A stretch of 64,000 bases of DNA from Anaerohalosphaeraceae bacterium (GTDB lineage Bacteria > Planctomycetota > Phycisphaerae > Sedimentisphaerales > UBA12454): NCBI GenBank assembly GCA_021108375.1, contig JAIORA010000048.1, positions 62,001 through 126,000 on the forward strand, given 5' to 3'. The position numbers and the translations under genes are program-made. Shown here piece by piece: positions 1-57,534 of this stretch (positions are counted from its first letter, which is position 1; each line of letters begins with the position of its first letter). The notes under the pieces are model-generated. The model had not been told where the DNA came from and did no database searches. It worked only from the letters and a program-made list of their open reading frames with translations.

Positions 1-2728
1 TCATAATATTGAACCAGCCGGACATTTCCGGATAGGTAATTACAGCATCGGTTATCTTGTATGAATCGTCCAGTGCTGAAACCACATTGGGAGCGGCAGC
101 GGTTCCGAATCTACTGGTAGCCCAACTCAACAGAAAGTCATTGGAATCAAAGCTACACGGGTCCCAGGCAATTCTGTTGCCAGCCAGCCGAGATGGTTCA
201 TAAAGCACATCGGAGGCATCCGGCCCTCTCGTATTTGCCTGCCCGCTGACTCCTTCGTTGGCCATAGCCATCGCACGACTGCAAAATTTCGGGCCGGTAT
301 AACACAATTGAGCCGGACAAGGCTGGTTCAAACTGGGATGATAATTATGCCATCCGAAAGTCTCCATACGCGGCATATCGACATACTGTGTAAAATCGTT
401 TTTCCAGGCATAATCGTTTGCCGGCGGAACAGTCAGCTTTGCCCGGAACCGAACATCTGTCGGCAAATCACCGGACAAGCTCTCAAATAAGTTGGGATTA
501 CCGCCCAAACCATGATTGATTATTCCCCACGGACGCAGATATACCTTGGGGGCATCGAAGTCATCTGGATAAGAATAATTAGGGTCATAACCTCTGGCCT
601 CAAGCATCGCTTTCCTTATCAGATTAACATACTCAATGAGCCTGTTCCGGTACAATGTAGTGTCGTATTCATTGCCGCAATCGCCACAGCCACAGGAATA
701 AATACTTTGACAATGCTCTCCGATATTGAGCAAAATGCCGCCTATATCATTAACATCTTCAAAAAGGTTTCTGATTTTATTATAGAGCAAATCCTTGCTG
801 GCCTGTTTGCTCGGACAGATAAAGGGGTGATAGTACTCGGTTCGACGATACGGCTCTGTCTCAGGATGAACAGCAATAAAATTATCAATCATCCATTCCG
901 GCATCGAGGGTAAATAGCTGAATACATACACCTTAGCACCGTAGGCCTTTGCTGTGGCAATAGAGCTTCTCATACCATTGCGACTGGCCTCTACCCTGAC
1001 TGTATAAGCTTCACGCTGCGCTTCGTCATCAAACAGATTAGCATCATAATGGTAAATTGGTGTGCTGTCGGCATACTCATTCATATAATAACTGGCAAAA
1101 TTGGCACGTTTGTATGTATCACTGGTACGGGTCTCAAATGTTGGCCGGCTGGCAATATCAAAATCCTGCTCCAATACAACAATTCCCTCAATGTCAATTC
1201 TGTCGCGAAGCTCAATCAAACCATACAGAACACCGGTTAGTGTTTTGCCGGTAACGAGTATTTTACTATCATCAAAGCTCTTGACATAAAAACCCTGCTC
1301 GCCAACCCAGTTCACATCTACCGTAAGATTAGCATCTGCAACCAAAGGAGCTATGCAGGGGTCATCATATTTCCCGGCATATATGACAGTTTGCTGGTTG
1401 CAATCGACGGCAATTTTTATATCATCCCAATAGCCGGAATCCCCATCCTTCCAGAAACGGCATTTTATTCTGTCGAAAGAATCAGCATCGCTGTTCTCAA
1501 ACGGACGATTAATATCCTCTGCTTCCCAAGCACCTGCACCTGCCTGTTTTACTCTTAAGTCAAATGTTTTGGCTGAAAAGTCTGTTGTCAGTTCAAACTT
1601 ATACCAGGTATCCAGCGAAAAATCGCTCAACAGTATTACATCGGAAAAGTTGCTTCTGCAAACAATCCTTTTTATTGCACCTCCGCTTAAACATTCCATC
1701 CTTACCGTTGTAGCCAGCCTGTCGAAATCGTCAGTGAAGTAGGTATAATGCGTGCGGTATCCATTCCCGCCCCACACATATTTTCCGTACCAGGTTGCAA
1801 CATACTTATCGGTATTAAAACCACTGCCAAAATCAAGGGCTGTACTTCCCTCGCCACTGGAGCCTTGTACCCTGCCACACTGGCTTCCTACATAAGCGCC
1901 GCTGGTCGCAATGGTAGTTGAGCCTGCTGTCGGAACCCAGTTCAGATTGGAAATAATATCCGGCTCATCCCATATATTACTAACAGAAGTATCCCATGTT
2001 CCCGTCCCTGCGCTGTCAAGCTCAAAATTGGTATTTACAATGTCGGATGACACTGGCGGCGAACCGAGGGACGACACTTTGCCGATGACTTCCGCTGTTT
2101 CCGCTATCCCCTCAAGCGTATCATCAACAAATAACTGTATAGGCCTTGTAAGAGCCTCCGGAGAGGCCTTATAACCGTCCCACCTCAGAGAAACTTCCTG
2201 GCCAGGCCTGCTCTCATGGCTTCGCAAACGAAATTGCAGTTTGGAAACATATTTGGGGTTAAAATCCGGATCTATAGAATGATTGTCAGCAGTTCCTGCC
2301 TGACCCTGTTGCAAACTGAACTGAGTCCATTCGTCTTCGGTCATACTCGACCACCATCGCCAGTACTCATAATTGCCGCTCGTATCGTACAAATAAATAT
2401 AGACAGAATTAATCGTATCTCTGGTTACCGGACAAACCGAAAAGACCATCCCGACATCAGTCATATCCACCGGAGTACCCAGCTTCTTTGAGATGTAGGC
2501 AATTTCATAGCTGGCAGCACCAGCACTTACAGTAAATGTGAGTTTGATGCTGGCTGAACCCTCAATCTTATCATTTGAGTCCACCACCATCACAGCATTG
2601 GGGTCAGCGGCACTAATAGAGAGGCCGTTAGTATCATCAAAATTCTCATAATAGACCGAGGCATTCGCAATCGAAGCCAACAGGACAACGCCAATCACGA
2701 CAATTAAATTTATCATCCACCTTTTCAT
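1..2728 (-). CDS. giant secreted glycosidase-like protein, C-terminus cut by window edge
   Basis: An open frame of 909 codons runs from ATG at 2728 (SD AGAGAGG about 6 nt upstream) to the window start without a stop. Seen in order: a signal peptide (about residues 1-23), a beta-rich N-terminal domain, a segment matching the N-terminus of the protein at 4507-7275 (QLFVDD..EGIAETAEVIG), an inserted ~200-residue domain (about 1412-2042 nt), then again the paralogue's sequence (WVGEQGFYVKS.., NDIGGILLNIGEH, CGCGDCG, DMPRMETFGW). The architecture resembles families with a GH20/GH67-type N-terminal domain followed by a TIM barrel (DUF4838-like, with a Cys cluster). The substrate is unknown; the pectate-lyase-like neighbour suggests a uronate-rich polysaccharide. 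By comparison with the paralogue, about 390 C-terminal residues lie outside the window. Expression under the LacI-type regulator is inferred from gene order. Confidence 0.72.
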   Translation of the reverse strand, partial: MKRWMINLIVVIGVVLLASIANASVYYENFDDTNGLSISAADPNAVMVVDSNDKIEGSASIKLTFTVSAGAASYEIAYISKKLGTPVDMTDVGMVFSVCPVTRDTINSVYIYLYDTSGNYEYWRWWSSMTEDEWTQFSLQQGQAGTADNHSIDPDFNPKYVSKLQFRLRSHESRPGQEVSLRWDGYKASPEALTRPIQLFVDDTLEGIAETAEVIGKVSSLGSPPVSSDIVNTNFELDSAGTGTWDTSVSNIWDEPDIISNLNWVPTAGSTTIATSGAYVGSQCGRVQGSSGEGSTALDFGSGFNTDKYVATWYGKYVWGGNGYRTHYTYFTDDFDRLATTVRMECLSGGAIKRIVCRSNFSDVILLSDFSLDTWYKFELTTDFSAKTFDLRVKQAGAGAWEAEDINRPFENSDADSFDRIKCRFWKDGDSGYWDDIKIAVDCNQQTVIYAGKYDDPCIAPLVADANLTVDVNWVGEQGFYVKSFDDSKILVTGKTLTGVLYGLIELRDRIDIEGIVVLEQDFDIASRPTFETRTSDTYKRANFASYYMNEYADSTPIYHYDANLFDDEAQREAYTVRVEASRNGMRSSIATAKAYGAKVYVFSYLPSMPEWMIDNFIAVHPETEPYRRTEYYHPFICPSKQASKDLLYNKIRNLFEDVNDIGGILLNIGEHCQSIYSCGCGDCGNEYDTTLYRNRLIEYVNLIRKAMLEARGYDPNYSYPDDFDAPKVYLRPWGIINHGLGGNPNLFESLSGDLPTDVRFRAKLTVPPANDYAWKNDFTQYVDMPRMETFGWHNYHPSLNQPCPAQLCYTGPKFCSRAMAMANEGVSGQANTRGPDASDVLYEPSRLAGNRIAWDPCSFDSNDFLLSWATSRFGTAAAPNVVSALDDSYKITDAVITYPEMSGWFNIM
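1412..2042 (-). other. copy 1 of the repeated NTxFE...FDDIKV domain, nested in the glycosidase-like gene
   Basis: These nucleotides encode about 210 residues that start IVNTNFELDSAGTGTWD, contain LDTWYKFELT..FSAKTFDLRVKQAG and FDRIKCRF, and end YWDDIKIAV. The same pattern makes up most of the proteins at 8310-9086, 9173-10078 and (twice) 10125-11681. In the paralogous protein at 4507-7275 the flanking sequence is continuous without this block, so it is an insertion within a domain. Confidence 0.7.
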
Positions 2729-2852: not shown

Positions 2853-4223
2853 TTATCTGGGCCCGTCTCCTTCATTAACCCGCCAAGAGAGGTACTCTTC
2901 AAGGTTGGTATAGCCGTCTCCGTCTGGGTCGTAATTCCTGTCGGCGGCATTATTAGGGTTCAGCCCATAACAATTTTCCCAGAAATTCGGCATGCCGTCT
3001 CCATCACTGTCAGGGTAAGGTGTGTAGGACTGAAGGTATGGCCAGCCGCCGACATCTGCCTCATCATTGATAAAATAACCGGTGCCGTTCTCCACATCGC
3101 TTACGATACGATCATCAACTGAATCACGGTCGGGATATGTCGCACCAGCATAATCCAGAACACGATTGTAGGCTGTAGTAGCGTTATGCGTTGTTACCGG
3201 CTGCACAGAATAAGGACTGCTCTGCTTGTAAGCGGCTTTTTGCGATGTGGTAAAATCGTAAAATTTAACAATACTCCATGGATCAGATGGGTACGAGCCA
3301 TCAAACCAATTACCGCTGAAATAACCTCTTGCCGTAGTTGTATATTCCCCAAAAGCATGATAGGTGCTATTGGCGTTATTACCTTTTATGTAACAATTGT
3401 TTATAAAATTTGATTTGGTGATACTATCTACATCGTTATCACCATCCGCGTTATATCCTGCATGTTTTCCGCCACAATTGTACATAACATTGTTGCGGAA
3501 ATCAAAGGTCCAACCTTGTGTGTCCGCATCGTAGTAATTTCCAGGACGAGGACATCGGCCTGAATGAGCAAAAAGATTATGGTGAAAACTAATTTTTATA
3601 CCATAACAACCTCTAATTAATGAAGCGTATGGATGGCCGGCGTAATTCAGAGCTTCACTAATTATACACCACTGATAAGTAACATTATCGGAATACTGAG
3701 AACTACTATAACCACCGACTGAAGCTATTTCATCATTTCCCCAACTAAGCGAGCAATGGTCAATCATTACATTTTTTCCATTAGCAACAGTCAGACAATC
3801 CTCTTCGTCAAGACGATTGCCATTATTTCCGCAACGGCTTCGCAAATGACGAATAATAATGTGGTTAGCGTTATTGACACGAAGCTCGTTATTTGCAATG
3901 CAGATACCATCGCCCGGAGCCGTTTGACCGGCAATAGTAAGGTAAGATGTATCAACTAACAACCGACTTGACAAATATATAGTACCCGATACATCAAAAA
4001 CAATGGTGCGAGGGCCGGAAGCATTATCAATACCGTAGCGTAGTGAGCCGTAACCGGAATTATTAAGATTTGTTACATGATAGACATCTCCACCACGACC
4101 ACCCCGTGCCCACCTGCCCTCACCCTCAGCAGTCGGAAAAGCGCGAGGAGAGGCACCACTGGCTCCCTGAATTGCCCAGAAGAGCATAAACATTACTGTT
4201 AATAACAATGATCTCTTTTCCAT
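2853..4223 (-). CDS. secreted pectate-lyase-like protein with calcium-binding tail
   Basis: This 456-residue protein has a signal peptide (residues 1-23) and a single-stranded beta-helix domain opening AFPTAEGEGRWARGGRGGDV, then TIVFDVSGTIYL and LTIAGQTAPGDGI, the signature of PL1-type polysaccharide lyases of planctomycetes and Bacteroidetes. HIIIRHLRSRCG and NVMIDHCSLSWGND are parallel-coil rungs that usually carry the catalytic cleft. The C-terminus (DSDGDGMPNFWE, then DPDGDGYTNLEEYL) is a thrombospondin-3/EF-hand-like calcium-binding segment common in exported enzymes. The probable reaction is beta-elimination of pectate or a related uronan outside the cytoplasm. The start at 4223 has an AAAGGA SD. 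It sits between the two giant glycosidase-like genes, suggesting a shared substrate. Confidence 0.82.
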   Translation of the reverse strand: MEKRSLLLTVMFMLFWAIQGASGASPRAFPTAEGEGRWARGGRGGDVYHVTNLNNSGYGSLRYGIDNASGPRTIVFDVSGTIYLSSRLLVDTSYLTIAGQTAPGDGICIANNELRVNNANHIIIRHLRSRCGNNGNRLDEEDCLTVANGKNVMIDHCSLSWGNDEIASVGGYSSSQYSDNVTYQWCIISEALNYAGHPYASLIRGCYGIKISFHHNLFAHSGRCPRPGNYYDADTQGWTFDFRNNVMYNCGGKHAGYNADGDNDVDSITKSNFINNCYIKGNNANSTYHAFGEYTTTARGYFSGNWFDGSYPSDPWSIVKFYDFTTSQKAAYKQSSPYSVQPVTTHNATTAYNRVLDYAGATYPDRDSVDDRIVSDVENGTGYFINDEADVGGWPYLQSYTPYPDSDGDGMPNFWENCYGLNPNNAADRNYDPDGDGYTNLEEYLSWRVNEGDGPR

Positions 4224-4506: not shown

Positions 4507-7275
4507 TCAATAACCGCCATCCCGTTGCTCAGTACGGCTATGCGGCAAAATCTTCGTTCCCCACAATGGTGGTATTAGTTTTTCCTTAAATGGGTTAAGA
4601 CTCGTATGCGGCTTGAGCTTGTAAAGTTTTTGCTCCGTTGGCGTATATAGCCTTGCAAAGAAAAACTCCGTGCCGATACAGTCCGACATTGAGGTAAATG
4701 TCAACTCGTGGCTGTTTCGGTTTTCAATCGCGGGCAGTTTTATATATCGGACAAATTCATTATCCTCCATTGAATCGCCGGTCGCAATATCCGTCAAAGT
4801 TGAAACATTTTTGCCGTCCAGTTCGATTTTCAAAATAGACTTACGGCATAATCTTCGAGTATTCGAACCTAATGGAACAAACCTCAAAACAAGCATTGCC
4901 CCATCACTTAAATCGCCATTGAATTTCACCCTCATTTTCGGCAATATCCAAGGCGATACTACTGCCGCAAGTTTATTTTCGCCATTGGCATCATTAACAT
5001 CAACAATATATTCCTCGCCTTTCCACCGCTTGAGCAGCCTCGGATAAACATTGCTCCATTTCAAATTGTCCGGAAAAGGTGCATATCTCCTGTAGCCTGT
5101 GTACTCATCGTTTTCGCACTCCCACAGCAAATAAGGATATCTCTTCGCCCTGAAGGGTTCCATTACGAGCCGGTTGTACGCATTTTGGCACTGCTGGCGC
5201 GTAGAAGCCACCTGGCCAAATATCGGATAAATCCGCGGTTTCAGTGTTTTGAGTTCACTCGGCTGTCGGCTGAAGTAATCACTGCCAATTTGAGGATGGG
5301 CCTTATGTATCCACCGCCCGTACTTTTCCATTTGCGGCACAGCCAATTTGATATGCTCAACGGCAAGCTTGTGATATTTTTCGCTAAGCTGCCTCTCGGT
5401 TGTTTCGCTCATATTATTGTAGATAAGAGCAAAGTGGTAGTGGTGATAGAATCTGGTCAGGCCGGCAGTAGCTTTGCCGAGCATCCAGAACCGCTCAAGA
5501 GTTTTATTTTTCGGACAAACGGCCATAGCTTTGGTTAGTTTCGCTTCGGCGTTGTCGGCTATTTTAATTGCTTCGGTAAGTTTGAACTTCGACAATACCT
5601 GCTCAAGAGTTTTTTCGTTCACAGACAAAACATCGTTGGTCTGAGCAGTGGTATTGGTAGCGGTATAGCAATGTGTCCTTTTGTCTTTTACAAAATTAAA
5701 CATATGAAACCAATTGGTATTTTTCGACAAAATTATGAATGCATCGGTTAATTTGTATGTGTCTTTCAATGCATCAGCCACATAAGGAGCAGCCTCATTA
5801 CCAAACCTTTTTTGTGCCCATTTCAGCAAAAATTCGTAAGAGTCAAAATTGTATGGGTCCCAGGATATTTTATGTGATGCCAGCCTACTCGGCTCGTAAA
5901 GAACATCATCCTCAGCTTTCATTACCCTGATAGTAGGCTGACCTTTCATTCCCATCGCAGCGAGTTTCTCAAGCCGAGCTTTCAATTTCGGAGCTGTATA
6001 ACAAAGTTGCGTTCTGCACGGCTGGTTAAGTTCCGGATGATGTGTATCCCAGCCAAAAGTCTCCATTCGAGGCATATTTACAAACGGATTAAAATGGTCA
6101 TTCCAGAGATAATCACTCCCCGGCGGAACGGTTACCTTTGACCAAAAACGAATGTCTTTGGGAAGTTTCTCTGCCAAGGCAAAAAACTTGTTAGTGTCCG
6201 CTTCCAGACCGTGCTTAAAAATGCCCCACGGACGAAGATAAATAACAGCGTCAGGAGTGCTTTCGTGCATCGCTTTACGAATCAACATAAGATACTCGTA
6301 AAGCCTGTCCTCGTAAGACTGAGCTTCGCACTTTTCACAGCCGCAGGAAAAAATGCTTTGAGTGTGTTCGCCGATATTGAGAAGTATTCCGCCAATATCA
6401 TTAACATCAGCAAAAAGATTCTTGATTTTGTTGTACAACGCATCTTTGCTTGCCTGTTGAGACGGACATATAAAAGGATGCCACCACTCGGTTTTGCGAT
6501 AAGGTTTCACTTCCGGACGGGCGGCGATAAACGAATCCCTGCCCCACCACGGCAGTGTTGGCTGATACATAAACAGATAAACTTTGGCACCATAGGTTTT
6601 CGCTTCGGCAATTTTGTTTTTTAATCTTTCTCTGCGAACCATAACCTTGCGGATATGTTCGCTGCGGGTCTTCTCATCGGGAAATATCTCAGGGGAGCTT
6701 TCATACAAAAACAAACTGCTGTCTCTACCATCTGGATTCTGCTGTTCGGGAGACCAGAAATTGACGAAATTGGCACGCTTTTTAAGGTCGCCCTTACGAG
6801 TATCAAAGACAGGCCTGTCCCTGACATCAAATTTTTGTTTTTTTGATACCTCCCGCCCATCATCTTTAATTCGGTCGCGTAGTTCCATCAGGCCGTAAAG
6901 CAAGCCGACCTGAGTATTAGCTGTAATAAGAATTCGGCCATCTTCAAGGCTCTTGATATAAAAACCCTGCTCACCGAGCCATTGCGTTTCAAGTTTGGTT
7001 AATGATTTGAGAAGTGGAATAATATATTTATTATTCAGTCTTGCCGCAATAATAGAATTATTCACATCCTTGCTGCCAGGCATATCCGCAAGACTGCAAA
7101 CACTGCCTATCTGCGATGCTGTTTCAGCTATACCGCCGATAGCATCAGTTTCTACAAAAACCTGTGTTTCAAGTGATGCCGTAATTGCACCTAAAGCTGT
7201 CGCAATTCCGCCGAAAACAGTAATGCTCAAAAAAAAGACAGATAGACGAAACAGAACATTCCTACGCATTGTCAT
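4507..7275 (-). CDS. giant secreted glycosidase-like protein (paralogue of gene at 1-2728)
   Basis: About 922 residues. ATG at 7275 is preferred because GGGAG lies 5 nt upstream; the TTG at 7287 would overlap this SD. A signal peptide (MRRNVLFRLSVFFLSITVFG) is followed by an N-terminal alpha/beta domain of GH20/GH67-N type (LETQWLGEQGFYIKS, ITANTQVGLLYGLMELRDRI), a probable TIM barrel (TYGAKVYLFMYQP; NDIGGILLNIGEH; FSCGCEKCEAQ; IYLRPWGIF; MPRMETFGWDTHHP) and a helical/beta C-terminal region. It aligns end to end with the partial neighbour except for that gene's inserted domain. A catalytic acid pair cannot be assigned from sequence alone. It is probably exported and acts on a plant- or algal-type polysaccharide; exact family and activity are unknown. 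Confidence 0.75.
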   Translation of the reverse strand: MTMRRNVLFRLSVFFLSITVFGGIATALGAITASLETQVFVETDAIGGIAETASQIGSVCSLADMPGSKDVNNSIIAARLNNKYIIPLLKSLTKLETQWLGEQGFYIKSLEDGRILITANTQVGLLYGLMELRDRIKDDGREVSKKQKFDVRDRPVFDTRKGDLKKRANFVNFWSPEQQNPDGRDSSLFLYESSPEIFPDEKTRSEHIRKVMVRRERLKNKIAEAKTYGAKVYLFMYQPTLPWWGRDSFIAARPEVKPYRKTEWWHPFICPSQQASKDALYNKIKNLFADVNDIGGILLNIGEHTQSIFSCGCEKCEAQSYEDRLYEYLMLIRKAMHESTPDAVIYLRPWGIFKHGLEADTNKFFALAEKLPKDIRFWSKVTVPPGSDYLWNDHFNPFVNMPRMETFGWDTHHPELNQPCRTQLCYTAPKLKARLEKLAAMGMKGQPTIRVMKAEDDVLYEPSRLASHKISWDPYNFDSYEFLLKWAQKRFGNEAAPYVADALKDTYKLTDAFIILSKNTNWFHMFNFVKDKRTHCYTATNTTAQTNDVLSVNEKTLEQVLSKFKLTEAIKIADNAEAKLTKAMAVCPKNKTLERFWMLGKATAGLTRFYHHYHFALIYNNMSETTERQLSEKYHKLAVEHIKLAVPQMEKYGRWIHKAHPQIGSDYFSRQPSELKTLKPRIYPIFGQVASTRQQCQNAYNRLVMEPFRAKRYPYLLWECENDEYTGYRRYAPFPDNLKWSNVYPRLLKRWKGEEYIVDVNDANGENKLAAVVSPWILPKMRVKFNGDLSDGAMLVLRFVPLGSNTRRLCRKSILKIELDGKNVSTLTDIATGDSMEDNEFVRYIKLPAIENRNSHELTFTSMSDCIGTEFFFARLYTPTEQKLYKLKPHTSLNPFKEKLIPPLWGTKILPHSRTEQRDGGY

Positions 7276-7346: not shown

Positions 7347-8093
7347 TTACCAGAAATGGCGAGTTTTACCGCCATCATAATGACGATCCGGGCTATCTGC
7401 CGTATCATTAAGCCGTTTCCAGAAAACATTGCCGCCGTTATGCAGCATAAGAGCTCCCTCGCGTTTTCTCATAGTATGACTCCACGACCACCAAGGATAA
7501 ATAGTTCTGGTCCAGTCGCTGGCCCAGTCTGACATCAGTGGAAAGTCTGACTTATCAACACTCCTTTTCGGCATTCGCTCTTTTTCTTTACGGTCGCGCC
7601 AATCTCCACCATCAGTGCCTGTAAAATTACCGAAGTAATTGTAGCCGATTGTGCCAACCTGACCCCAATCCGCCGTTGTGTTCTCCATTGTATGCACATT
7701 CGAGCAATACAGTGCTTTGTGATTTTTGATATATGATGAATAAAATGGGCTTACCCACTCTGAACCACCAGACAATGCATTAATTTTGGACAGATGATAA
7801 GCGTGATGGGGATGTTTTTGTGCGGAACCTGTAATACTTTTCTCTGTTGTTCCCCCTATTTCGACTTCAACTATATCGTGCGACGGATATTTCGTGTTAT
7901 AATCACCTGCATATACCGTTAGAGCTAAGTGGCACTGATGCAGATTATTGCTGCAAATAACTCTTTTAGCCAACTCCCTTGCTCTTTGCAGTGAAGGCAT
8001 CAAAATTGCCAAGAGCATAGCAATAATGGAAATAACAACCAAAAGCTCTACCAAAGTAAATGCCTTATACCCCCTTTTTTCGTGACTCAACAT
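7347..8093 (-). CDS. pseudopilin-leader secreted protein (DUF1559-like, H-X9-DG type)
   Basis: The 248-residue product begins with a type IV prepilin leader: basic residues, then [20 protein letters not shown], where cleavage would fall before F with Glu at +5. The rest is a globular export domain ([21 protein letters not shown] is the typical continuation). Near the C-terminus HNGGNVFW...HYDGG resembles the H-X9-DG tail motif of planctomycete DUF1559 proteins. ATG at 8093 has AAGGAG 8 nt upstream; the upstream TTG at 8099 is too close to that SD. Lying in the polysaccharide locus, it may be a surface or pseudopilus-attached component, but its role is unknown. A related protein is at 44852-45664. 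Confidence 0.75.
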
Positions 8094-8309
8094 ATCCAAA
8101 ACTCCTTAATCGTCTTTAATTCCACTACGCCGTTAAGCATTAACCATTACGACTATATAAACCAAAAGGTCTGTCCTTTTTTTATATCAATAATAGCGAA
8201 TTATAAATTTCCAAATACCGCTCCAGCCAAGGCGACCTGCTCATACAACTGATGAACCGGACGCCCTGACCAAAAACAGCAATAACTTTACTCTTGCGCA
8301 AACTTCAAT

Positions 8310-9086
8310 TTAGCTGCGTCGGCGTTTCAAAACAAGCAAACTACCTAAACTAAGCAGTACCATTGTTGCAGGCTCAGGAACTATCTTAATATCATCGAAG
8401 TAGCCATAAATACTGTCGCTTCGGCCATAACCATAGACCCTGTCGAGTGAAGCACTGTCAGCATCATAGAAATCCTGATTCAGTGCAGTACTCCAGTCAT
8501 CTGTTGAACCAGCTTCTCTGGCCTTGATGTCAAACTTTTTGGTTGAGTAGTCCAATGTCATCTCGAACTCATACCAGGTATCAGCCACAGCAGCCATTAT
8601 CGTGGTGAAACCACTACCATCGTATATCTCGATGTTACCATTACCAGGATTTACCTGAATCCTGGCGGCCTTCTTGGCACTGTCGTCCATAATCATAAAG
8701 TAAGAATACCGGTTGCCGCTGTCGACTCGTATCGCGGTTTTCTGATACCAGGTTACTAAGTATTCACCTGTGTTGCCACCGTCAGCGAAGTCCAGCTTGG
8801 CATACTTTTCACTGGTGCCGGAACCGGTTAATCTGCCACACGCCGTGCCGCTGTAGGCCTCACCGCCGCCAACAACTTGCTGGTAACTGGTATTATTCAG
8901 CCACTTGACCATTGAGGCCGGGTCGGGGTCGTTGTTACCGGCACCCGCATCAGCATCGCCCCATTCATGGCCTGTGTCCCAGGTACCTTCACCAGCACTG
9001 TTTGGCTCGAAGGTCGTATTGACCAACGCAGCACCTGCCGGTAATGCTACGCACATTACCACCATTAAAACAATTAACTTTTTCAT
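8310..9086 (-). CDS. secreted single-domain protein with PEP-CTERM tail
   Basis: A signal peptide (MKKLIVLMVVMCVALPAGA) leads into one copy of the repeated domain (VNTTFEPNSAGEGTWD; WYEFEMTLDYSTKKFDIKA; LDRVYGYG; YGYFDDIKI). It ends in a PEP-CTERM anchor: VPEPATMVLL, hydrophobic stretch, then KRRRS. PEP-CTERM proteins are sorted to the outer surface in exosortase-containing bacteria. ATG at 9086 is chosen because GGAGG lies just upstream and the ATG at 9101 sits on that SD. Function unknown; the domain could bind carbohydrate, as it has the beta-sandwich-like pattern and occurs inside a glycosidase-like protein. Confidence 0.8.
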   Translation of the reverse strand: MKKLIVLMVVMCVALPAGAALVNTTFEPNSAGEGTWDTGHEWGDADAGAGNNDPDPASMVKWLNNTSYQQVVGGGEAYSGTACGRLTGSGTSEKYAKLDFADGGNTGEYLVTWYQKTAIRVDSGNRYSYFMIMDDSAKKAARIQVNPGNGNIEIYDGSGFTTIMAAVADTWYEFEMTLDYSTKKFDIKAREAGSTDDWSTALNQDFYDADSASLDRVYGYGRSDSIYGYFDDIKIVPEPATMVLLSLGSLLVLKRRRS

Positions 9087-9172
9087 TTTCTTCGCCTCCA
9101 AAACTAAAAACTTTCAGACATTTTCTTCATCGCAACGCACGATGAATCTTAATGCTCAAGTAATTTAATAAA

Positions 9173-10078
9173 TTAAAAACATTCGTTATTGTAAGGGTCA
9201 GTGCAGGCCAGCCAGTTTTCAGCTAAAATAGCCATATCCTCGAAATCCACATAGCAGTCCTCGTTCAGGTCTCCTTTGGCATAGCCCCAATCGCCGCACT
9301 CGTATGTCGGCAAACCCTCTACCACTTTAATATCGTCAAAGTAGCCGTAAACCGTGTCCTTCGAAGCCTCACAATATATACGGTCAAACGATACGCAGTT
9401 TGCATCGACAAAATCTAGGTCATCTAATGTACCCTGCCAAAATGAATTGCCTGCCTCTTTGACCCTGACATCAAATTCCTTGGCCTGAAAATCAAGAACC
9501 ATCTCGAATTCATACCAGACACGGTCAAGCATACCAGACATCAATGTTGCTGTTCCGCCGCCATAGGAAACCACAATAGCATGCAGATCTTCACTCATAA
9601 TCACTTTTACTGCCTCGTTGTAGGGGTCTGATTTATCTATAATCCACACGAAAGAGCTTCGGGAACCAGAAACCTCACTTTGAGAGGCATTATACTGAAG
9701 CCAGGTCATTGTATAGACATCGTTGTAATCCCCCAATGTACCGAATTCCAGTTTGGAATACTTCGCGCCGCTACTCCTGCCTCTGAGCCAACCGCATTGG
9801 TCCCCTGAAATGGTAGTATCACTCGGACCAAACTGAGGATAGGTTGCATTTCTAATCCACTCTACTCCCGAACAGGGGTCAACTGCTCCACTGTATGGTT
9901 CGCTGGTTTGACGACCCCAACGAACACCATATTCATCATTGTCCCATGTCATTGGCCCGGCACTATCCACCTCAAAAGTCGTGTTGACCAGCACATCCCC
10001 ATCGGCAGCATTTGCCACGCCGACAGCCAAAACAAGCATTCCTATTGTTACGCTAAATAATATAGCAAACTTTTTCAT
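9173..10078 (-). CDS. secreted single-domain protein with dockerin-like tail
   Basis: 301 residues: signal peptide (MKKFAILFSVTIGMLVLAVG), one copy of the repeated domain (VNTTFEVDSAGPMTWD; VWYEFEMVLDFQAKEFDVRV; SFDRIYCEA; YGYFDDIKVV), then a dockerin-like half EF-hand (GDLNEDCYVDFEDMAILAEN, followed by W-L-A-C-T-D-P). Such tails are abundant in Phycisphaerae secreted proteins. The AAGGAGG SD before ATG 10078 is strong. Compared with the gene downstream, the domain is the same but the anchor differs (dockerin-like here, PEP-CTERM there). Function unknown. Confidence 0.8.
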   Translation of the reverse strand: MKKFAILFSVTIGMLVLAVGVANAADGDVLVNTTFEVDSAGPMTWDNDEYGVRWGRQTSEPYSGAVDPCSGVEWIRNATYPQFGPSDTTISGDQCGWLRGRSSGAKYSKLEFGTLGDYNDVYTMTWLQYNASQSEVSGSRSSFVWIIDKSDPYNEAVKVIMSEDLHAIVVSYGGGTATLMSGMLDRVWYEFEMVLDFQAKEFDVRVKEAGNSFWQGTLDDLDFVDANCVSFDRIYCEASKDTVYGYFDDIKVVEGLPTYECGDWGYAKGDLNEDCYVDFEDMAILAENWLACTDPYNNECF

Positions 10079-10124
10079 TTTTACCTCCTTACGAAATTAT
10101 AAAGAATATCTGTCTCATTTTTTT

Positions 10125-11681
10125 TTAGAACCTAACACAGTTTGCGTCATTGGGGTCGGAACATTCTACCCAATCCTGCGAGAAAGCCGCAAAATCTTTG
10201 AAGTCAACATAGCAGTCTTGGTTGAAGTCGCCTTCTTTGTAGCCATAACCACCGCAGCCATACAGCGAGACCTCAAAATCATCCCAATACCCATTGGCAC
10301 CGGTCTGGTCAACTTTGCATTGTATCCAGTCGAAAGAATCAGAGATGTCAGCATTTCGCAAATACCCATCGACCATACCTTCCCATTTGGATTCGCCTAA
10401 TTCCCTTACTTTGACATCAAATGTCTTATTTACGAAATTCAACTCTGCTTCAAAACCATACCAGGAGCCTGCGTTATAATTGCTTAGCAGCGTTTTTGCT
10501 ATCTTGCTTCCACCGATAGTGCCACAATTAACTGATATTTCCGTTGCCGCTCCGGTGTTATCGCTCCCCATAGTTATCGCCAAGGCGATATTCGCCCAAG
10601 TCCCTGTATTCGGGCCAATGTCGCTACCAATAATCGTGCGTACATAGTTGTTCTTGGTTGAACCGGCATATTCGTATTTCTGCCACCATTTCATAGTGTA
10701 AATACCGACATTGTTGCCATCGTCAAAGTTCAGCGCAACTACCGTTCCATAAGGAGAGGTGGCCGTACGCCAAATTTTACCTGCCGCTGAGGCATCGTGG
10801 GATGCGCCGGAAGCAGTTACAATACCATTTGCATCACCCTGAAAATCATACCATTGGTCGGTGCTGATTGGGTCGGGGTCGTTGCCATCGCCCCACAAGT
10901 CATCTGCAGGCCAGGTTCCAGCTCCGCCGCTGTTCACCTCAAAAGTCGTACCAACAAGGTCAATAACTCCGCCCGACGGCAGTACCTGTACGGTAATATC
11001 ATCAAAGAAACCGAAAATCTTATTTGATGCAGCCCGACAGTAGATACGGTCAAAAGAATCGCTGTCGGACGAAACAAAGTTTGCATCGTTTAACGTGCCT
11101 ACCCAACTTACATCGTTTGCTTCCTTAGCTTTAATATCAAACTTCTTTGTCTGATAGTTCAATGTCAACTCAAACTCATACCAGGAATCATTTTTCATAT
11201 TGCTCAATACTGTCGTAACTCCATCAGCAGTGTGAACCGAAATAGTATTGCCATCGGCATTCATAGTAACCTGTGTAGCCTCGTCGACATCATCATCGAT
11301 AATCCACACATTGGAATGCCTATCTCCCGTATTCGAGTCTTGTATCTGATTGAGCTGATACCACTTTACTACATAAGTACCAGTTTTAGAGCCGTTACCG
11401 AATTCCAGCTTGGCATACTTGTTGCCGGTAACTCTTCCAGCCTGACCACCTTTCCAGACACGGCTTGTCGCAATGATAGCCTTAGAGTTGTCATTTGCTA
11501 CCCAGTTAATACCACTGGCAATATCCAGCTCGTCCCACACATCGCTTACAGATGTGTCCCATGTCTGGTAGCCGGCACTTTCCTTTTCAAAGGTTGTTTT
11601 GACCAGATAGCCCCCCATAACAGGAACCACTGTCAAGCCCAGCAAGCACACAACAATAAATAAAATACCTGACTTTTTCAT
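10125..11681 (-). CDS. secreted protein with two copies of the repeated domain and dockerin-like tail
   Basis: 518 residues from ATG 11681 (GAAGGAGG SD; the upstream in-frame start at 11702 lacks one). After the signal peptide come two tandem copies of the repeated domain: copy A (VKTTFEKESAGYQTWDTSVS ... SWYEFELTLNYQTKKFDIKA ... FFDDITV) and copy B (VGTTFEVNSGGAGTW ... SWYGFEAELNFVNKTFDVKV ... GYWDDFEV), then GDFNQDCYVDFKDFAAFSQD as a dockerin-like end. Copy A is clearly closest to the copy nested in the gene at 1-2728 (both read TWDTSVS followed by WDE). It is the first structural gene after the regulator, 73 bp away, so it is probably read through from that promoter. Confidence 0.8.
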   Translation of the reverse strand: MKKSGILFIVVCLLGLTVVPVMGGYLVKTTFEKESAGYQTWDTSVSDVWDELDIASGINWVANDNSKAIIATSRVWKGGQAGRVTGNKYAKLEFGNGSKTGTYVVKWYQLNQIQDSNTGDRHSNVWIIDDDVDEATQVTMNADGNTISVHTADGVTTVLSNMKNDSWYEFELTLNYQTKKFDIKAKEANDVSWVGTLNDANFVSSDSDSFDRIYCRAASNKIFGFFDDITVQVLPSGGVIDLVGTTFEVNSGGAGTWPADDLWGDGNDPDPISTDQWYDFQGDANGIVTASGASHDASAAGKIWRTATSPYGTVVALNFDDGNNVGIYTMKWWQKYEYAGSTKNNYVRTIIGSDIGPNTGTWANIALAITMGSDNTGAATEISVNCGTIGGSKIAKTLLSNYNAGSWYGFEAELNFVNKTFDVKVRELGESKWEGMVDGYLRNADISDSFDWIQCKVDQTGANGYWDDFEVSLYGCGGYGYKEGDFNQDCYVDFKDFAAFSQDWVECSDPNDANCVRF

Positions 11682-11754: not shown

Positions 11755-12840
11755 TTACTTTTCTGTTATACTTATTTTCTTCTCTGACCGCACCTCGCCG
11801 GCTGATTGACGAATGATAAATTTGCTGGGGATTGCTATCTGCTTAGGCTCATCAATATCACGCTCTATTCCTTCCATAAGCAGTTCAAAGGCAGAATTAA
11901 CCATTTCCTCTACCGGCTGAGCAATTGTGCTAAGCGGCGGCTGGGAATATGCCATCGTACTTACATCATCAAAACCTACAATTGATATATCCTGCGGTAC
12001 TCTTATGCCCATACGAGCCAGGGCCGAAGTCAAAAACAAGGCAAATTCACTTTGAATACATATAATCGCGGTACATTCAGGATGGGACTTCAGGAATTTC
12101 TTTGTTTGCAAAAAAGCCAAATCAACATCAATGATGTGGCGAGTACCTTTATTGGCATAACTTTCATCGGTGCTATACAACCTATCCTGGCCTTTGCCGA
12201 AACCGTGCGATTCGATACTTTTATAGAATTCTATAAAACGCATATCTTTCTCCCAGCCTGGCCAACACATAGAAAACATATAAATCTGACTGTGCCCAAG
12301 TCGATAAAGATGGTTTATCGCCTTTCTTATGCCAATGCTTACATCCTGGCATACCAACCTGTGGGAGGAATAGGCCGATTTGCCAAACAATGTCCCACTA
12401 AACAACACTGTCGGTACGGAAAATTTGAGCTTCGTTTGTATCTCTTTGACAGTCGCTTCCGGAAAAGCTCCCTTAACAATGAGGCCATCCACGCCGCGTC
12501 CAATTAACTTATGTGCCCGCTTTACCGTTATATCAAGATTACCTTTGGTATGAGCAACATACACTTCATAGCCGGCATTGTTGGCAAGCTCGTCCAGCTT
12601 CGCTTCCATAGTTGATGTTATCTCAAGAGATGGAGACCCCGCCAAAAAACCTATTGTCTGCGTCTTACCAAGAGACAGACCTCTGGCTACTAAATTAGGC
12701 TTGTAATTCATTTCTTTTGCCAGTGATTTGATACGGTTACGTGTACTAATGGATATTTGGGAATCGTCCCGCAGTGCCCTGCTGACGGTACCACGTGAGA
12801 TGCTTAGCTTTTCAGCGATAGAACTAAGAGTTGTTGCCAT
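11755..12840 (-). CDS. LacI-family transcriptional regulator
   Basis: 361 residues with the N-terminal LacI helix-turn-helix (TLSSIAEKLSISRGTVSRAL, then RNRIKSLAKEMNYKPN, residues about 4-55) and a periplasmic-binding-protein-like sugar-sensing core (IGFLAGSPS; GVDGLIVKG; ISIVGFDDVSTMAYSQPPLS). It should repress or activate the downstream enzyme genes in response to a saccharide. Its own promoter overlaps a pair of near-palindromes (12882-12915), so autoregulation is likely. Which sugar it senses cannot be read from the sequence. Confidence 0.92.
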   Translation of the reverse strand: MATTLSSIAEKLSISRGTVSRALRDDSQISISTRNRIKSLAKEMNYKPNLVARGLSLGKTQTIGFLAGSPSLEITSTMEAKLDELANNAGYEVYVAHTKGNLDITVKRAHKLIGRGVDGLIVKGAFPEATVKEIQTKLKFSVPTVLFSGTLFGKSAYSSHRLVCQDVSIGIRKAINHLYRLGHSQIYMFSMCWPGWEKDMRFIEFYKSIESHGFGKGQDRLYSTDESYANKGTRHIIDVDLAFLQTKKFLKSHPECTAIICIQSEFALFLTSALARMGIRVPQDISIVGFDDVSTMAYSQPPLSTIAQPVEEMVNSAFELLMEGIERDIDEPKQIAIPSKFIIRQSAGEVRSEKKISITEK

Positions 12841-15701: not shown

Positions 15702-17099
15702 TTAATTTGTCCAGAAGTTATAATCATCATCTCCATCCTCAGTAATATCTAGAGGACATTCATCAACAGTCCCTTGATTAAAAAATGTATTGAAAATTTG
15801 AAGGTCAACATTACTAACGCGAAAAGGGCCTTCTTTATGATGATTGAGGTCGGCGCAAATACCATTATTTATTTGCATAAGTTCTTCATCAGTTTTATTA
15901 AAAGCCTGTAGAAACACTTGAAGGTCAACATTACTAACTCTAAACGGGCCGTTTTGGATACCGTCGATATCGCCTCGGCAATTATATCTATAACACCAAC
16001 AGGAAGGCTTATCCCATTCAAGCCAGTCCCAAAAACTTGGATTGCAACTACTCATACAGGTATCAGGATTTAGTACCGTTATTGTTGCATTTGTGTATGC
16101 ATGGTATGGTATATTGCAACATACATTTTCAAGAAAAACATCACCATTAATCACCCATATTGAGTAATTATAATCAGTTTCTTTATCTAATTCAACACTA
16201 AAGGTAGTATTATATATGTATGTTTCAGGTTCTATGGAATCGTTAATATCGGTATCTGATTGTGAAAGACCAATGATAGCATCAGTTGTTTCACTTGGTG
16301 TATTTGAATTAATAATGCTATTATATATTTTTAAAATGGCATCGTTATTAGTAATTGCAATAGTTGCAGAGGCTCCGCCATTCTTATCTCCAAGTTCTGC
16401 AGAAATAACACATGAGGTAACATTTACATCTAAATTACCATCTAATTCCAAGGCAAATGTATCGCACATATAATCATAACCAGAAGTTACAATGTCAGTA
16501 TCTATTATTGTATGAATGGATCTTATTGGGTCATATATTCCATCCTTAATTCCTAAGCCATATTCATTACCATTAATGAGACATTTCGATATATTGGTAT
16601 TATTGGTTTCTTTGAAAAGAACGGTATGACCAAAACCTTCACCGGATTGTTCTCCAGAATTGCCGTTTTTGCCACGTAGAAAACAACAGTTTTCCAAGCT
16701 AATGTCATTGATTTCTGAAGCTAAAACTGAACAGCGATCATCTGGAACAGGCTTTTCGTAACGGTCATGTATGACTGTCAAGTTTTTTAATACACACCCA
16801 TTTCCTAGTTTTATTGTGAAATCATTTGGGCTTTGTTCATTAGGGTCTTGGATGATAACTGACTCTTTGTCACCTATACCTTCCAAAGTTATGTTATTTT
16901 TGACTGACAAGTCAACATATTCTTCATAAGTTCCCGGGTAGATTGCTATAGCATCACCGTTTTGTGCATTTTGAAGGGCCTCATTTATGTCAATATAACT
17001 ATTTGGGACATTCTGGGTTCCGTCAACTATCAATGTATCCCCAAAAAGAAATTGACTACAGAACACTGCAACAGATAAGATTGCAATAATTTTTTTCAT
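15702..17099 (-). CDS. secreted right-handed beta-helix protein with two dockerin-like repeats
   Basis: 465 residues: signal peptide (MKKIIAILSVAVFCSQFLFG), then DINEALQNAQNGDAIAIYPG, T-Y-E-E, the usual opening of parallel beta-helix (Pbl-repeat) proteins, followed by helix rungs rich in N and I/V. A CWC..NC cysteine segment precedes two near-identical dockerin-like half EF-hands (both with GPFRVSNVDLQ). Dockerins bind cohesins in clostridia; in planctomycetes their partner is unclear. The neighbouring lipoprotein might be its surface partner, which is inference. Substrate unknown. Confidence 0.75.
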   Translation of the reverse strand: MKKIIAILSVAVFCSQFLFGDTLIVDGTQNVPNSYIDINEALQNAQNGDAIAIYPGTYEEYVDLSVKNNITLEGIGDKESVIIQDPNEQSPNDFTIKLGNGCVLKNLTVIHDRYEKPVPDDRCSVLASEINDISLENCCFLRGKNGNSGEQSGEGFGHTVLFKETNNTNISKCLINGNEYGLGIKDGIYDPIRSIHTIIDTDIVTSGYDYMCDTFALELDGNLDVNVTSCVISAELGDKNGGASATIAITNNDAILKIYNSIINSNTPSETTDAIIGLSQSDTDINDSIEPETYIYNTTFSVELDKETDYNYSIWVINGDVFLENVCCNIPYHAYTNATITVLNPDTCMSSCNPSFWDWLEWDKPSCWCYRYNCRGDIDGIQNGPFRVSNVDLQVFLQAFNKTDEELMQINNGICADLNHHKEGPFRVSNVDLQIFNTFFNQGTVDECPLDITEDGDDDYNFWTN

Positions 17100-51248: not shown

Positions 51249-52124
51249 TTATTTTTTTATATAAACAATATGCTCAAAACGCCTGCCATTTTTGAAGATT
51301 CCCTGCGAATCGTAAATCGTGAATGAAAACTTTATCGCATCAATGTTAGCGGTGTCAGTCGGAAAAGTTACTATCGGAAAGACAGCAAACGGCGGCAATA
51401 TCTCACCCCACCAATACGTTATATTGCTGCTTACTTCCGCATCGTCCGGCCACCAGATGATTTCACCGGTAATACCATCTATGCCATCTTCTATCTCAAT
51501 CGTAAAATCATCGACACCAGCCGCAAAATACATCGGGTATTCGTTATTAATACTGGGGTCAACAGCAGGCCGGGTAAGCCATTTTCCCGTCGTGACAGTC
51601 TTGCCGCCTCTAAACTCTTTCTGCTGGTCAAGCAATGAACCTGAATCGTATTCTGCCTCTGTCACAAGCTGAATCGGCAATAATGGGTCAGCACCGAGTA
51701 TAGTCTGCCGCCTTGCCAAAATCTTTATTTCCCTGTCATCCTGGACTGTGGAATCAAAAGTCGGAACCTGAGCCTGCCCGTAATATATTCTCGCAAAATT
51801 TCCATTAACGATATTGCCGCTGTAACTATTGGTCGTCTCAAATTGCCCGGCAGAGAAAAACGCTATACTGTCAGCCCGAACTTCGTCGCTGCCATTTGTG
51901 GCTTTGTAAAATTCTACAACAATAGGGCTGTCCTCGTACCAGCCGGCGAAATCAGAATTGAGCTGGTCAACTATCGCCCGCAGAGTCCGCATAACCTCAG
52001 CGGTGGCCATCGCCTGTCGCTGGGCCTGGAGCGAATAGCTGAATATCGTGCCAGAGGCAAGTAATACTGCCGCTAACAGCCCCATCGCCACCAACAACTC
52101 AGTTATAGTAAACGCCTTTCTCAT
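51249..52124 (-). CDS. gspJ: GspJ-like pseudopilin
   Basis: 291 residues from ATG 52124 (AAGGAAAG SD). Leader RKAFTITELLVAMGLLAAVL with Glu at +5, then the J-type helix (RTLRAIVDQLNSDFAGWYED). GspJ normally pairs with GspI and GspK at the pseudopilus tip; the order H-I-J-K here supports this. Exact subclass is by gene order. Confidence 0.8.
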   Translation of the reverse strand: MRKAFTITELLVAMGLLAAVLLASGTIFSYSLQAQRQAMATAEVMRTLRAIVDQLNSDFAGWYEDSPIVVEFYKATNGSDEVRADSIAFFSAGQFETTNSYSGNIVNGNFARIYYGQAQVPTFDSTVQDDREIKILARRQTILGADPLLPIQLVTEAEYDSGSLLDQQKEFRGGKTVTTGKWLTRPAVDPSINNEYPMYFAAGVDDFTIEIEDGIDGITGEIIWWPDDAEVSSNITYWWGEILPPFAVFPIVTFPTDTANIDAIKFSFTIYDSQGIFKNGRRFEHIVYIKK

Positions 52125-52174
52125 CTCTATACTTTCCTTAGCCCGGCACAAAAGCCGGCGACTGTGTCCTTATT

Positions 52175-52921
52175 TTAAAACTTTATTATCCTCTGAAAAA
52201 CCCCAACATCCGGATTAGCTCCGGTCGCGGTCGTAACACCCCCAACCCCATCAGGCGGACGCAAAAACCTTATATCCGTAGAAGTCGGCATATCTGTTTC
52301 CCAATCTCTGTCAAGAGTGAGAACCGTACCATCTCGTTTAACAACACGATAGAGCCTGCCGGTAGTGGCCTCTATAATCGTGGTTGGTGGATTTATAAAC
52401 GGCCCCAAACTGCCGGTCGTAATCTCATTAAAACCAGCCACAGCGGTAGTAACATTTGTCGTGTAAAAAATGGGATAATTACCACTGCCGTAAGTATTTG
52501 CGACCGCTTTTTTCCTGCCAACAAAAATTGTAACCTGAACACTTGTTTCATCAATATCATTTACAAGTTTTCTGCAGATTCCGCTCCAGTAATACTGCGA
52601 ATTTCCACTGGCCAGGTCAACAGAGGGATAAGCAAACTCGCTATCATCAAATGGCAGGTTCAGATATAACCTCAGATATTGACATCCCATACCAGGAGCA
52701 CTGTCGCTCTGCAATCTCACGATATCAAGGCCGCGAAGCTGAACTTTCGCAAACGCCTCATCGGCGACAATAGCCGCCATCGTCCGCTCGACAGAAATGG
52801 TCGTAAAATGAATACCAAGCGGAAACATCGTCGCTACCAGCAGCAACCCGACCGTCAAAATCCCGACAGCCATCAGCACCTCGGTAAGCGAAAAACCGTT
52901 ATGTCTCAATTTTCGTTTCAT
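52175..52921 (-). CDS. gspI: GspI-like pseudopilin
   Basis: 248 residues. Leader NGFSLTEVLMAVGILTVGLL with Glu +5; longer than a usual GspI (about 120). Contains the I-type start (EVLMAVGILTVGLLLVATMF, then TTISVERTMAAIVADEAFAK). Predicted tip subunit. In an operon with 4-25 bp gaps. Confidence 0.75.
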   Translation of the reverse strand: MKRKLRHNGFSLTEVLMAVGILTVGLLLVATMFPLGIHFTTISVERTMAAIVADEAFAKVQLRGLDIVRLQSDSAPGMGCQYLRLYLNLPFDDSEFAYPSVDLASGNSQYYWSGICRKLVNDIDETSVQVTIFVGRKKAVANTYGSGNYPIFYTTNVTTAVAGFNEITTGSLGPFINPPTTIIEATTGRLYRVVKRDGTVLTLDRDWETDMPTSTDIRFLRPPDGVGGVTTATGANPDVGVFQRIIKF

Positions 52922-52925
52922 ATTT

Positions 52926-53786
52926 TTACTTTTTATCTATTATTGTGCCAGTGTAAGGATTTACACGGCGAGTTTTCAGATTTATTAGATACGAAGAATA
53001 CGCTGTGCCGCTATTGTAAAATTTCGCAAATTCTTTCCGTGAATAAATCATAAGTTCGCGTCTACTCAGCTCTTCGGAATCATCCTGAACAAACATCCCT
53101 ACCGGTGGATTTGAGCTAATATTATCTCTGGTGTTAAAAATAGTATCGTTACTCCCATTGGTCGTCTTGCCATCTTTATTACGCATCTGAGCGGTTGTCA
53201 TTACAAGCTTTCCCGATGGCGAAAAAACTATTGAAAAACTCGTCTCAGCGGTCATATCATTATTAGCACTTATATCGGCATCAGACGATATATTATTGAC
53301 ATCCATAATACCAATATTGGCTGGCAGCTTTATTGGCTTTTTACCTTCGATAGCTCGAAAGCAATCCTTATCATTACCCATAGTTTTTTCATCCTCATGA
53401 ATTATATAAATCATATATTGGTCACGATTCAGCGGGTCATTTTCTACGCCATTAGCGTCAGCAGCTTTTTGAAACCGTATGCCTGCATACCTGCGGCTGC
53501 TGATTGCCATCGCACGCGCGCTGGACAATGCCGATTCGACCATACTTAGCGTGCCGGTAGAGTCGTAAGACCTCTGCACCGCGTTAATAGCAGGGATAGC
53601 AATGCCGATAAGCGATGCGACAATAACGGTAACAACCAGCATCTCGACCAGCGTAAAACCGCCCTTTTGTTTAACGCAAAAATGGTCAGTCCCCACCCCC
53701 TGAGCAGGGACTAACCTATCACTGCTTCGGCTATCAGGCCGGAAGGTTTTTTCTGATTCAACAAATTGTTTCTGTTCAGTTTCCAT
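52926..53786 (-). CDS. gspH: GspH-like pseudopilin
   Basis: 286 residues. The first 40 residues (METEQKQFVESEKTFRPDSR...) precede a canonical leader KGGFTLVEMLVVTVIVASLI. The following SMVESALSSARAMAISSRRY, AGIRFQ is typical of GspH. The long hydrophilic leader extension is unusual and may reflect a start that lies further in, but no SD-preceded ATG is visible near KGG. Confidence 0.8.
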   Translation of the reverse strand: METEQKQFVESEKTFRPDSRSSDRLVPAQGVGTDHFCVKQKGGFTLVEMLVVTVIVASLIGIAIPAINAVQRSYDSTGTLSMVESALSSARAMAISSRRYAGIRFQKAADANGVENDPLNRDQYMIYIIHEDEKTMGNDKDCFRAIEGKKPIKLPANIGIMDVNNISSDADISANNDMTAETSFSIVFSPSGKLVMTTAQMRNKDGKTTNGSNDTIFNTRDNISSNPPVGMFVQDDSEELSRRELMIYSRKEFAKFYNSGTAYSSYLINLKTRRVNPYTGTIIDKK

Positions 53787-53801
53787 TCTATCTTCTGTCT
53801 T

Positions 53802-54290
53802 CTACCTGTTCGTTATATCGTCTTGCTTTTGTTCAGCAGTACTGGAATTCGCATCCGGCCCGCTCGACCAGACCAGCGGAAAGTTATCTTCATTTGCCTT
53901 GGAATAGCTGTAATACAGTTCTTGGCCCCACGGGTCAATAATTTCAAGGATACCATCACCATCTACATTGATAACCAATGTCGAATCTAATTCATCAATG
54001 GCTTTTTTCGCCTGCGGTACGAGCGAGAGTCGGTAATATATTTCTTCAATATCCGAATCGCAATTGGGAGAATAGCCACCAGCCAAATCATAAAACTTTC
54101 CGTGAAAATCATAGTACTGCTCAAGGGCGGTATCTATAATTACTAATTGGGCTTTTGCCATATCAAGTTTTGCACGCTTATCTACGGACTGACTGAGAGA
54201 AAAAATCCCTGCCGCAAGGATAGCGATTACCACTACCGTTACCAGAATTTCCACTATCGTAAAACCGAATTGGCTGTGTAAGTTTCTCAT
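53802..54290 (-). CDS. GspG-like pseudopilin
   Basis: 162 residues from ATG 54290 (GGAAAG SD). Leader SQFGFTIVEILVTVVVIAIL; the C-terminal part with DPWGQELYYSYSK and SSGPD is the GspG calcium-loop region. This has the length of ordinary GspG, while the two upstream paralogues are twice as long; it may be the true major pseudopilin. Confidence 0.8.
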   Translation of the reverse strand: MRNLHSQFGFTIVEILVTVVVIAILAAGIFSLSQSVDKRAKLDMAKAQLVIIDTALEQYYDFHGKFYDLAGGYSPNCDSDIEEIYYRLSLVPQAKKAIDELDSTLVINVDGDGILEIIDPWGQELYYSYSKANEDNFPLVWSSGPDANSSTAEQKQDDITNR

Positions 54291-54308
54291 TTTACTTTCC
54301 ATCAACAC

Positions 54309-55151: not shown

Positions 55152-55225
55152 ATTTTTACGCCTTTTATTTCTAACACCTTAAAAAACTTTTAAGACTTGA
55201 GCCAGGCATCACAAATGACTCTGTC

Positions 55226-55256
55226 ATTCCCACGAAAGCGGGAATCCATTTTTAAA
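55226..55256. repeat. dispersed CATTCCCACGAAAGCGGGAA hairpin
   Basis: CATTCCCACGAAAGCGGGAA-TCCATTTTT in the 110-bp gap between two pseudopilin genes of one operon. It can form a hairpin followed by a T-rich run on the plus strand. Related copies at 19774, 23352 and 61262. Confidence 0.6.
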
Positions 55257-55261
55257 TCTGC

Positions 55262-56155: not shown

Positions 56156-56204
56156 TTTTTATTGCCTTTCAAAATTCCAGGTTCTATTTTCTATCTTCTG
56201 TCCG

Positions 56205-57452: not shown

Positions 57453-57534
57453 CTTATTACCCTTTCAACTACTTCCTGTATCAATTAGTCTCAGCCCAAA
57501 GGCCGAATCCTAAACTCATAACTCATAACTATTT

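Follow-up and report, generated by a model that had tools for sequence, protein, structure and literature searches.

A repeated lectin-like module of LacI-headed loci in an Anaerohalosphaeraceae bacterium: a predicted divergent branch of the Sialidase-like_CBM superfamily with a probable role in carbohydrate binding

The stretch of DNA analysed here, referred to as the window, comprises 64,000 nucleotides of an Anaerohalosphaeraceae bacterium of the class Phycisphaerae (contig JAIORA010000048.1, positions 62,001 to 126,000 of the forward strand). At positions 8310-11681 it carries adjacent genes, A, B and C, in which one secreted module is repeated. What is this module, and why does the same unit occur on proteins with different C-terminal tails and also within an enzyme? 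A sequence-only reading of the window had taken it for an undescribed domain joined to interchangeable surface anchors, with a role in carbohydrate binding. Our answer, held with moderate confidence, is that it is a carbohydrate-binding module of a LacI-controlled, pectin-type utilisation locus. Such a role remains likely because the module is repeated and secreted, is joined to at least two kinds of tail, is fused to an enzyme and has a predicted beta-sandwich of the concanavalin-A/lectin kind. We infer sugar binding, the ligand, control by LacI, surface display and a part for a neighbouring pseudopilin; the best guess for the ligand, given the PelZ-like lyases in the loci, is a pectic or uronic-acid-rich glycan.

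The genome of the window (G000; 2.36 Mb, 55 contigs, 93% complete) is described below by contig number, the window being located in C5; G121 denotes a distant Phycisphaerae metagenome-assembled genome (MAG). The module-bearing features of the window are the following:
1..2728, minus strand: GH67-like enzyme with two type I modules, continuing past the window start (C5:60019-64728, 1569 aa)
1406..2044, minus strand: fifth module copy, type I, as an insertion in this enzyme's N-terminal alpha/beta domain
8310..9086, minus strand: gene A, one type I module between a signal-peptide-like start and PEP-CTERM
8316..8381, minus strand: PEP-CTERM sorting motif of gene A
8376..9029, minus strand: type I module in gene A, the copy used for structure prediction
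9173..10078, minus strand: gene B, one type I module and a single dockerin-like repeat
9176..9298, minus strand: single dockerin-like repeat at the C-terminus of gene B, no Pfam dockerin match
9317..9994, minus strand: type I module of gene B
10125..11681, minus strand: gene C, two tandem type I modules and a single dockerin-like repeat
10128..10256, minus strand: single dockerin-like repeat at the C-terminus of gene C
10263..10961, minus strand: second type I module of gene C
10983..11609, minus strand: first type I module of gene C

Genes A and C likely start with ATG at 9086 and 11681, respectively, each preceded by a GGAGG-type site. A profile made from the four copies in genes A, B and C, which are 29-41% identical in pairwise comparison, recovers them among the reading frames of the window at 298-352 bits and detects the fifth copy at 157 bits (frame 2-2740), while the next best frame reaches 7 bits. 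A sixth copy is located outside the window, in the same enzyme gene as the fifth. In BLASTP comparison the position of the fifth copy corresponds exactly to the junction of residues 74 and 75 in a module-free paralogue of this enzyme (4507-7275), within the paralogue's N-terminal domain. The opening, middle and closing motifs of the module are as initially described. The claim of five copies in four adjacent genes held as to repetition but not as to count and place, since there are four copies in three genes and the fifth is in a distant enzyme gene; likewise, fusion to an enzyme was borne out, the enzyme being GH67-like, but not its adjacency to genes A-C, with pseudopilin, GH67-like and PelZ-like genes lying between.

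Structure prediction, proposed earlier as a check for a beta-sandwich, found one: the AlphaFold (AF2) model of the gene A module is an all-beta beta-sandwich of the concanavalin-A/lectin kind (predicted local distance difference test score, pLDDT, 90.7). Its best structure match in PDB is the middle domain of BT_1020, residues 414-612 (5mqr), with Z 19.4 and a root-mean-square deviation of 2.2 A over 169 residues; the next chain has Z 15.4, and the rows below BT_1020 are mostly lectins or beta-sandwich domains of glycan enzymes. Legume/ERGIC-53-type lectins, sialidase lectin domains and CBM66 share the overall concanavalin-A-like fold with the module (Z 14-15), but are 7-11% identical to it, and sequence searches gave no link. 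Searched against PDB by sequence, types I/II brought up 3see_A alone (E 0.003). BT_1020 is described as a GH142 beta-L-arabinofuranosidase (PMC7263609).

The examined stretches of the genome contain 40 module copies at eight loci, 26 of full length (types I and II) and 14 of a shorter type III. The alignment of the latter (A3) comprises 12 of the 14 copies, two of C1:77890-82215 being left out; in alignment A5 the row L068 is identical to the first row. Members of Pfam family PF22585 (Sialidase-like_CBM) match residues 406-612 of 5mqr at E 9.7e-30, and the type III profile matches 5mqr at E 5e-7. In hhalign comparisons type III reaches 97.3% both with types I/II (E 2.5e-11) and with members of PF22585 from other genomes (E 2.2e-11). 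Controls compared with types I/II (LamG, LacI, PelZ and GH67-like) gave at most 0.2%, type II alone gave 0.5% with LamG, and the module is not LamG by profile (0.1%, with three LamG sequences, from the same genome and G121). The curated cut-off of PF22585, 27 bits, is passed at four type III places in the genome; 7 of the 12 type III rows tested match this family at E <=0.01, and the other five stay outside that limit.

Since type III bridges both sides and the BT_1020 domain is the best structure match, types I and II are placed by profile comparison and predicted structure in the Sialidase-like_CBM superfamily, as a divergent branch with a known fold. A wholly new fold or family was rejected on the BT_1020 match together with the type III profile links. 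The label of an undescribed domain was not borne out: a subtype in the same genome passes PF22585, and the top structure is the PF22585-type domain of BT_1020. A confident match to a known family, the outcome that would have refuted the novelty claimed in the sequence-only reading, was obtained indirectly, via type III, but not directly, types I and II staying under every Pfam cut-off. Although the predicted fold is shared with PF22585 and the BT_1020 middle domain and a bridging subtype links them, types I and II, unlike PF22585 members, occur alone or in tandem on PEP-CTERM and dockerin-like proteins.

The other genes of the window locus are:
2853..4223, minus strand: PelZ-like pectate lyase without module
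4507..7275, minus strand: module-free GH67-like enzyme; nearest in Foldseek are GH115, GH138 and GH67
7347..8099, minus strand: pseudopilin with N_methyl and DUF1559 (SBP_bac_10) motifs
11755..12840, minus strand: LacI-family regulator, head of the locus

The predicted product of 2853-4223, which confirms the proposed pectate-lyase-like neighbour, matches NF041900 at E 3.5e-41, with 141.4 bits against an equivalog cut-off of 840, indicating a relative of PelZ rather than PelZ itself. The GH67-like enzyme (4507-7275) scores 20.2 bits with PF03648, under the cut-off of 24.3; its model (pLDDT 76.4) has GH115, GH138 (a rhamnogalacturonan-II enzyme) and GH67 at the top of the Foldseek matches. The pseudopilin passes the cut-offs for N_methyl (29.4 vs 21.2 bits) and SBP_bac_10 (28.2 vs 23.3 bits). 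Elsewhere in the window, at 51249-63073, a run of pseudopilins (N_methyl profile matches) is followed by GspF-, GspE/PilB- and PilT-like genes, named from sequence, a possible assembly machinery for pseudopilins.

This arrangement recurs in the genome. A LacI regulator, a protein with module and PEP-CTERM, and a pseudopilin occur together in six of the eight loci. In C5 the order is LacI, a two-module protein and a one-module protein, both with dockerin-like tails, the PEP-CTERM protein with module, the pseudopilin, GH67-like, PelZ-like and the two-module GH67-like enzyme. A locus in C6 repeats this gene order with a three-module protein and with LacI on the opposite strand, and there modules are also found on the PelZ-like enzyme and a second GH67-like enzyme. 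The same head is found in C1 (62-85 kb), where the modules are mostly of type III, with a single one of type I, and where phytase-type propeller proteins bear modules as well. The loci in C8, C6 (84-101 kb) and C1 (217-230 kb) are layout variants, the pseudopilin adjoining LacI in C8 and lying on LacI's other side in C1 (217-230 kb). At C1 (279 kb) only LacI and a module-bearing PelZ-like enzyme are present, and C11 has a module-bearing PelZ-like enzyme without LacI. Modules are placed at the N-terminus of PelZ-like lyases, and are inserted in or appended to GH67-like enzymes.

Each of the seven LacI-type genes in this genome has a module gene less than 4 kb away, although zones of this kind account for 6.5% of its length (binomial p 4.7e-9). 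A pseudopilin follows within 600 bp after four of six module-bearing PEP-CTERM genes, compared with 1 of 22 others (Fisher p 0.003). Two type II loci have similar palindromes, TTGTTACGGCCATAATAA and TTGTTATGGCTGTAACAA, upstream of their LacI genes (C8:30091 and C1:278592), a possible operator. The phytase-type beta-propeller proteins fused to type III modules (C1:73696-77712, L012, and C1:82383-84590, L057) match PF02333 at E 1.9e-70 and 4.1e-69, respectively, and share their locus with GH67-like enzymes.

Outside this genome the module is rare. In genome scans, which overlap one another, types I/II were detected at E 1e-8 in 2 of the 297 further class genomes and in none of 391 other genomes of the phylum draw; none was found in 12 other genomes of the same family at E 1e-5 or in 37 other genomes of G121's order, and weak partial matches at E 1e-5 occurred in 3 of 39 other relatives. 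A scan of genome contigs, which detects only relatives with conserved peptides, gave one confirmed locus, JAIORC010000086.1 of a Phycisphaerae MAG, with the same genes as G121 C57. G121, which belongs to another family of the class, carries types I/II singly on PEP-CTERM proteins, with a LacI gene on one side and a pseudopilin on the other. Contig C57 continues with a GH67-like enzyme 62% identical to that of the window, on which no module was found; on a further contig, LacI is accompanied by a PEP-CTERM protein with two type III modules, by a pseudopilin and by three GH67-like enzymes. A close GH67-like enzyme is present in 1 of the 297 other class genomes, which is G121, also a carrier of the module. 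The joint recurrence of the rare modules and this enzyme suggests that the cassette moves as one block, probably through horizontal transfer. A second trio in G121 (C57:5719-8611, L064) has LacI, PEP-CTERM protein and pseudopilin, with a LamG-like domain, recognised by eye, instead of the module.

How are the modules held at the cell? The C-terminus of gene A matches the PEP-CTERM model PF07589 with 22.5 bits against a cut-off of 20.7, as the sequence-only reading had proposed for one protein, and the genome encodes an exosortase (E 6.5e-57). The tails of genes B and C contain one calcium-loop-like repeat each (GDxNxDCYVDFxD), so two proteins do end in dockerin-like tails as claimed, but with a single repeat each instead of two and with no match to the Pfam dockerin model up to E 10. 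They resemble cellulosome dockerins in this C-terminal repeat, but differ in its single occurrence, in staying below the Pfam model and in having no cohesin in the genome, where PF00963 gave zero matches; such absences are not absolute because the assembly is in 55 contigs and 93% complete. As the cohesin partner was not detected, the dockerin-like tail cannot count as a surface anchor, and interchangeable anchoring is supported for PEP-CTERM with its exosortase but not for this tail. A cellulosome-like scaffold was rejected because no cohesin turned up in the 93% complete genome. Dockerin-like repeats also occur, as a C-terminal pair, in another protein of the window (15702-17099), which matches pectinesterase weakly.

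A tree built from 28 modules pairs the C5 PEP-CTERM module with its sister, the end module on the enzyme of that locus (support 100/97; 70% identical), although that enzyme copy is about 10 kb away and the adjacent gene B module is about 39% identical to the gene A module. The PEP-CTERM module of C6 is likewise sister to the enzyme end module of its own locus (94/83). Single clades of all PEP-CTERM modules (p 9.6e-7) and of all enzyme-end modules (p 4.9e-7) were rejected in the approximately unbiased (AU) test. The remaining C5 and C6 modules pair across loci by position, as expected from duplication of the whole locus. We read the matched pairs as one ligand that surface protein and enzyme would have in common within each locus. 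In C6 the PelZ-like (L010:6274-8748) and GH67-like (L010:8998-13155) fusion genes are nearly identical in their upstream and signal-peptide regions and have modules that closely resemble each other, a sign of recent copying in the locus.

The same matching would also be needed for homotypic contact between proteins, and the module might be a structural unit joining the enzymes and anchored proteins of a locus, to each other or via another protein, with no sugar involved. Tandem arrays of two and three modules, the position of the top structure match as an internal domain in a multidomain enzyme, and dockerin-like tails with no cohesin to explain them all agree with this explanation. We nevertheless consider it unlikely, since the fold is lectin-like with structural neighbours that are mostly sugar-binding, and since G121 keeps the layout with one module of type I or type II, or with a pair of type III, while no module was found on the GH67-like enzyme of C57. 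Less probable still is a matrix or adhesion protein, inserted by PEP-CTERM into exopolysaccharide and serving attachment or biofilm rather than feeding. It is favoured by the PEP-CTERM score and the exosortase, and by the description of PEP-CTERM/EpsH as an exopolysaccharide-associated sorting system (PMC1569441); against it, the genes are grouped with lyases and GH67-like enzymes in clusters headed by LacI, and these enzymes carry the module as a fusion. That the module is itself a lyase or hydrolase of the concanavalin-A fold is very improbable: this fold includes enzyme families (GH131 is among the structure matches) and all 26 type I/II copies keep E8, D36 and D212 unchanged, but the module occurs in tandem and is attached again and again to other domains that are catalytic, and E8 at the first strand and D212 in the last presumably take the position of a structural calcium site in related folds.

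Several results weigh against carbohydrate binding in a LacI-controlled pectin-type locus, and against the family assignment, besides the missing cohesin. Direct profile comparison of types I/II with PF22585 members is weak (9%), and none of the 26 copies reaches the PF22585 cut-off; four match at E <=1, the best at E 0.015 (15.6 bits), and the whole gene C protein scores 19.9 bits, below the cut-off. W94/Y95 are conserved in type I and absent from type II. The window's own PelZ-like lyase lacks the module. The VIA ranking of the GH67-like model puts GH84/GH20 hydrolases first, in disagreement with Foldseek. A shared LacI operator was not found: the canonical palindrome (AANCGNTT core) occurs at one site upstream of a LacI helix-turn-helix region, in C6 only, and no 12-mer is common to three loci among 20 intergenic stretches. 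The groups put to the AU test were named after inspection of the tree, and the matching of modules could reflect domain copying without a common ligand.

If the module does bind carbohydrate, one binding specificity would be put on enzymes (GH67-like putative uronidases and, in sister loci, pectate lyases) and on module-only proteins alike. PEP-CTERM and exosortase would sort one module-only protein to the cell envelope or matrix; the others, with one, two or three modules, carry the dockerin-like tail. The module-only proteins may keep polysaccharide close to the cell for the module-bearing enzymes to cut, and the co-encoded pseudopilin may help to present it.

In polysaccharide utilization loci a regulator, surface sugar-handling proteins and enzymes are clustered. 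By analogy with the SusC/SusD-type loci of Bacteroidota, the window locus groups a regulator, putative surface sugar-handling proteins and enzymes, but has LacI and PEP-CTERM/pseudopilin proteins in the place of SusC/SusD, for which no search was made. Pilin-like proteins of planctomycetes have been hypothesised to act as polysaccharide 'fishing rods' (Boedeker et al. 2017, as told in PMC12078418). The common point is that pilin-like proteins are tied to polysaccharide capture; here, unlike in that hypothesis, a pilin-like gene adjoins a lectin-like PEP-CTERM protein. This neighbourhood fits the 'fishing rod' idea and shows nothing by itself. Among the open-access papers searched we found none joining BT_1020, DHA-hydrolase and rhamnogalacturonan-II in any pair, none on Phycisphaerae/Planctomycetes with both PEP-CTERM and dockerin, and none on crateriform structures with pilin and dextran in Planctopirus.

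A wider proposal, which we regard as tentative and somewhat doubtful, is that the LacI cassettes are a Planctomycete counterpart of the SusC/SusD locus, with a PEP-CTERM protein that bears an exchangeable lectin module, together with a pseudopilin and enzymes. Envelope lectins and pilin would capture polysaccharide, and which glycan a cassette serves would depend on its module type (I, II, III or LamG-like). The clusters of carbohydrate-active enzymes (CAZymes) of Planctomycetota were functionally uncharacterised as of a 2024 survey, with 30-34% of the matches therein unassigned (PMC11131199); a fold, a superfamily and a testable role are now attached to genes from this kind of cluster. The repeated unit of LacI, lectin-module PEP-CTERM protein, pseudopilin and uronidase-like enzyme makes pilus-aided capture directly testable and, if the proposal is true, the hypothesised 'fishing rod' uptake could be attached by name to this cassette as its genetic unit.

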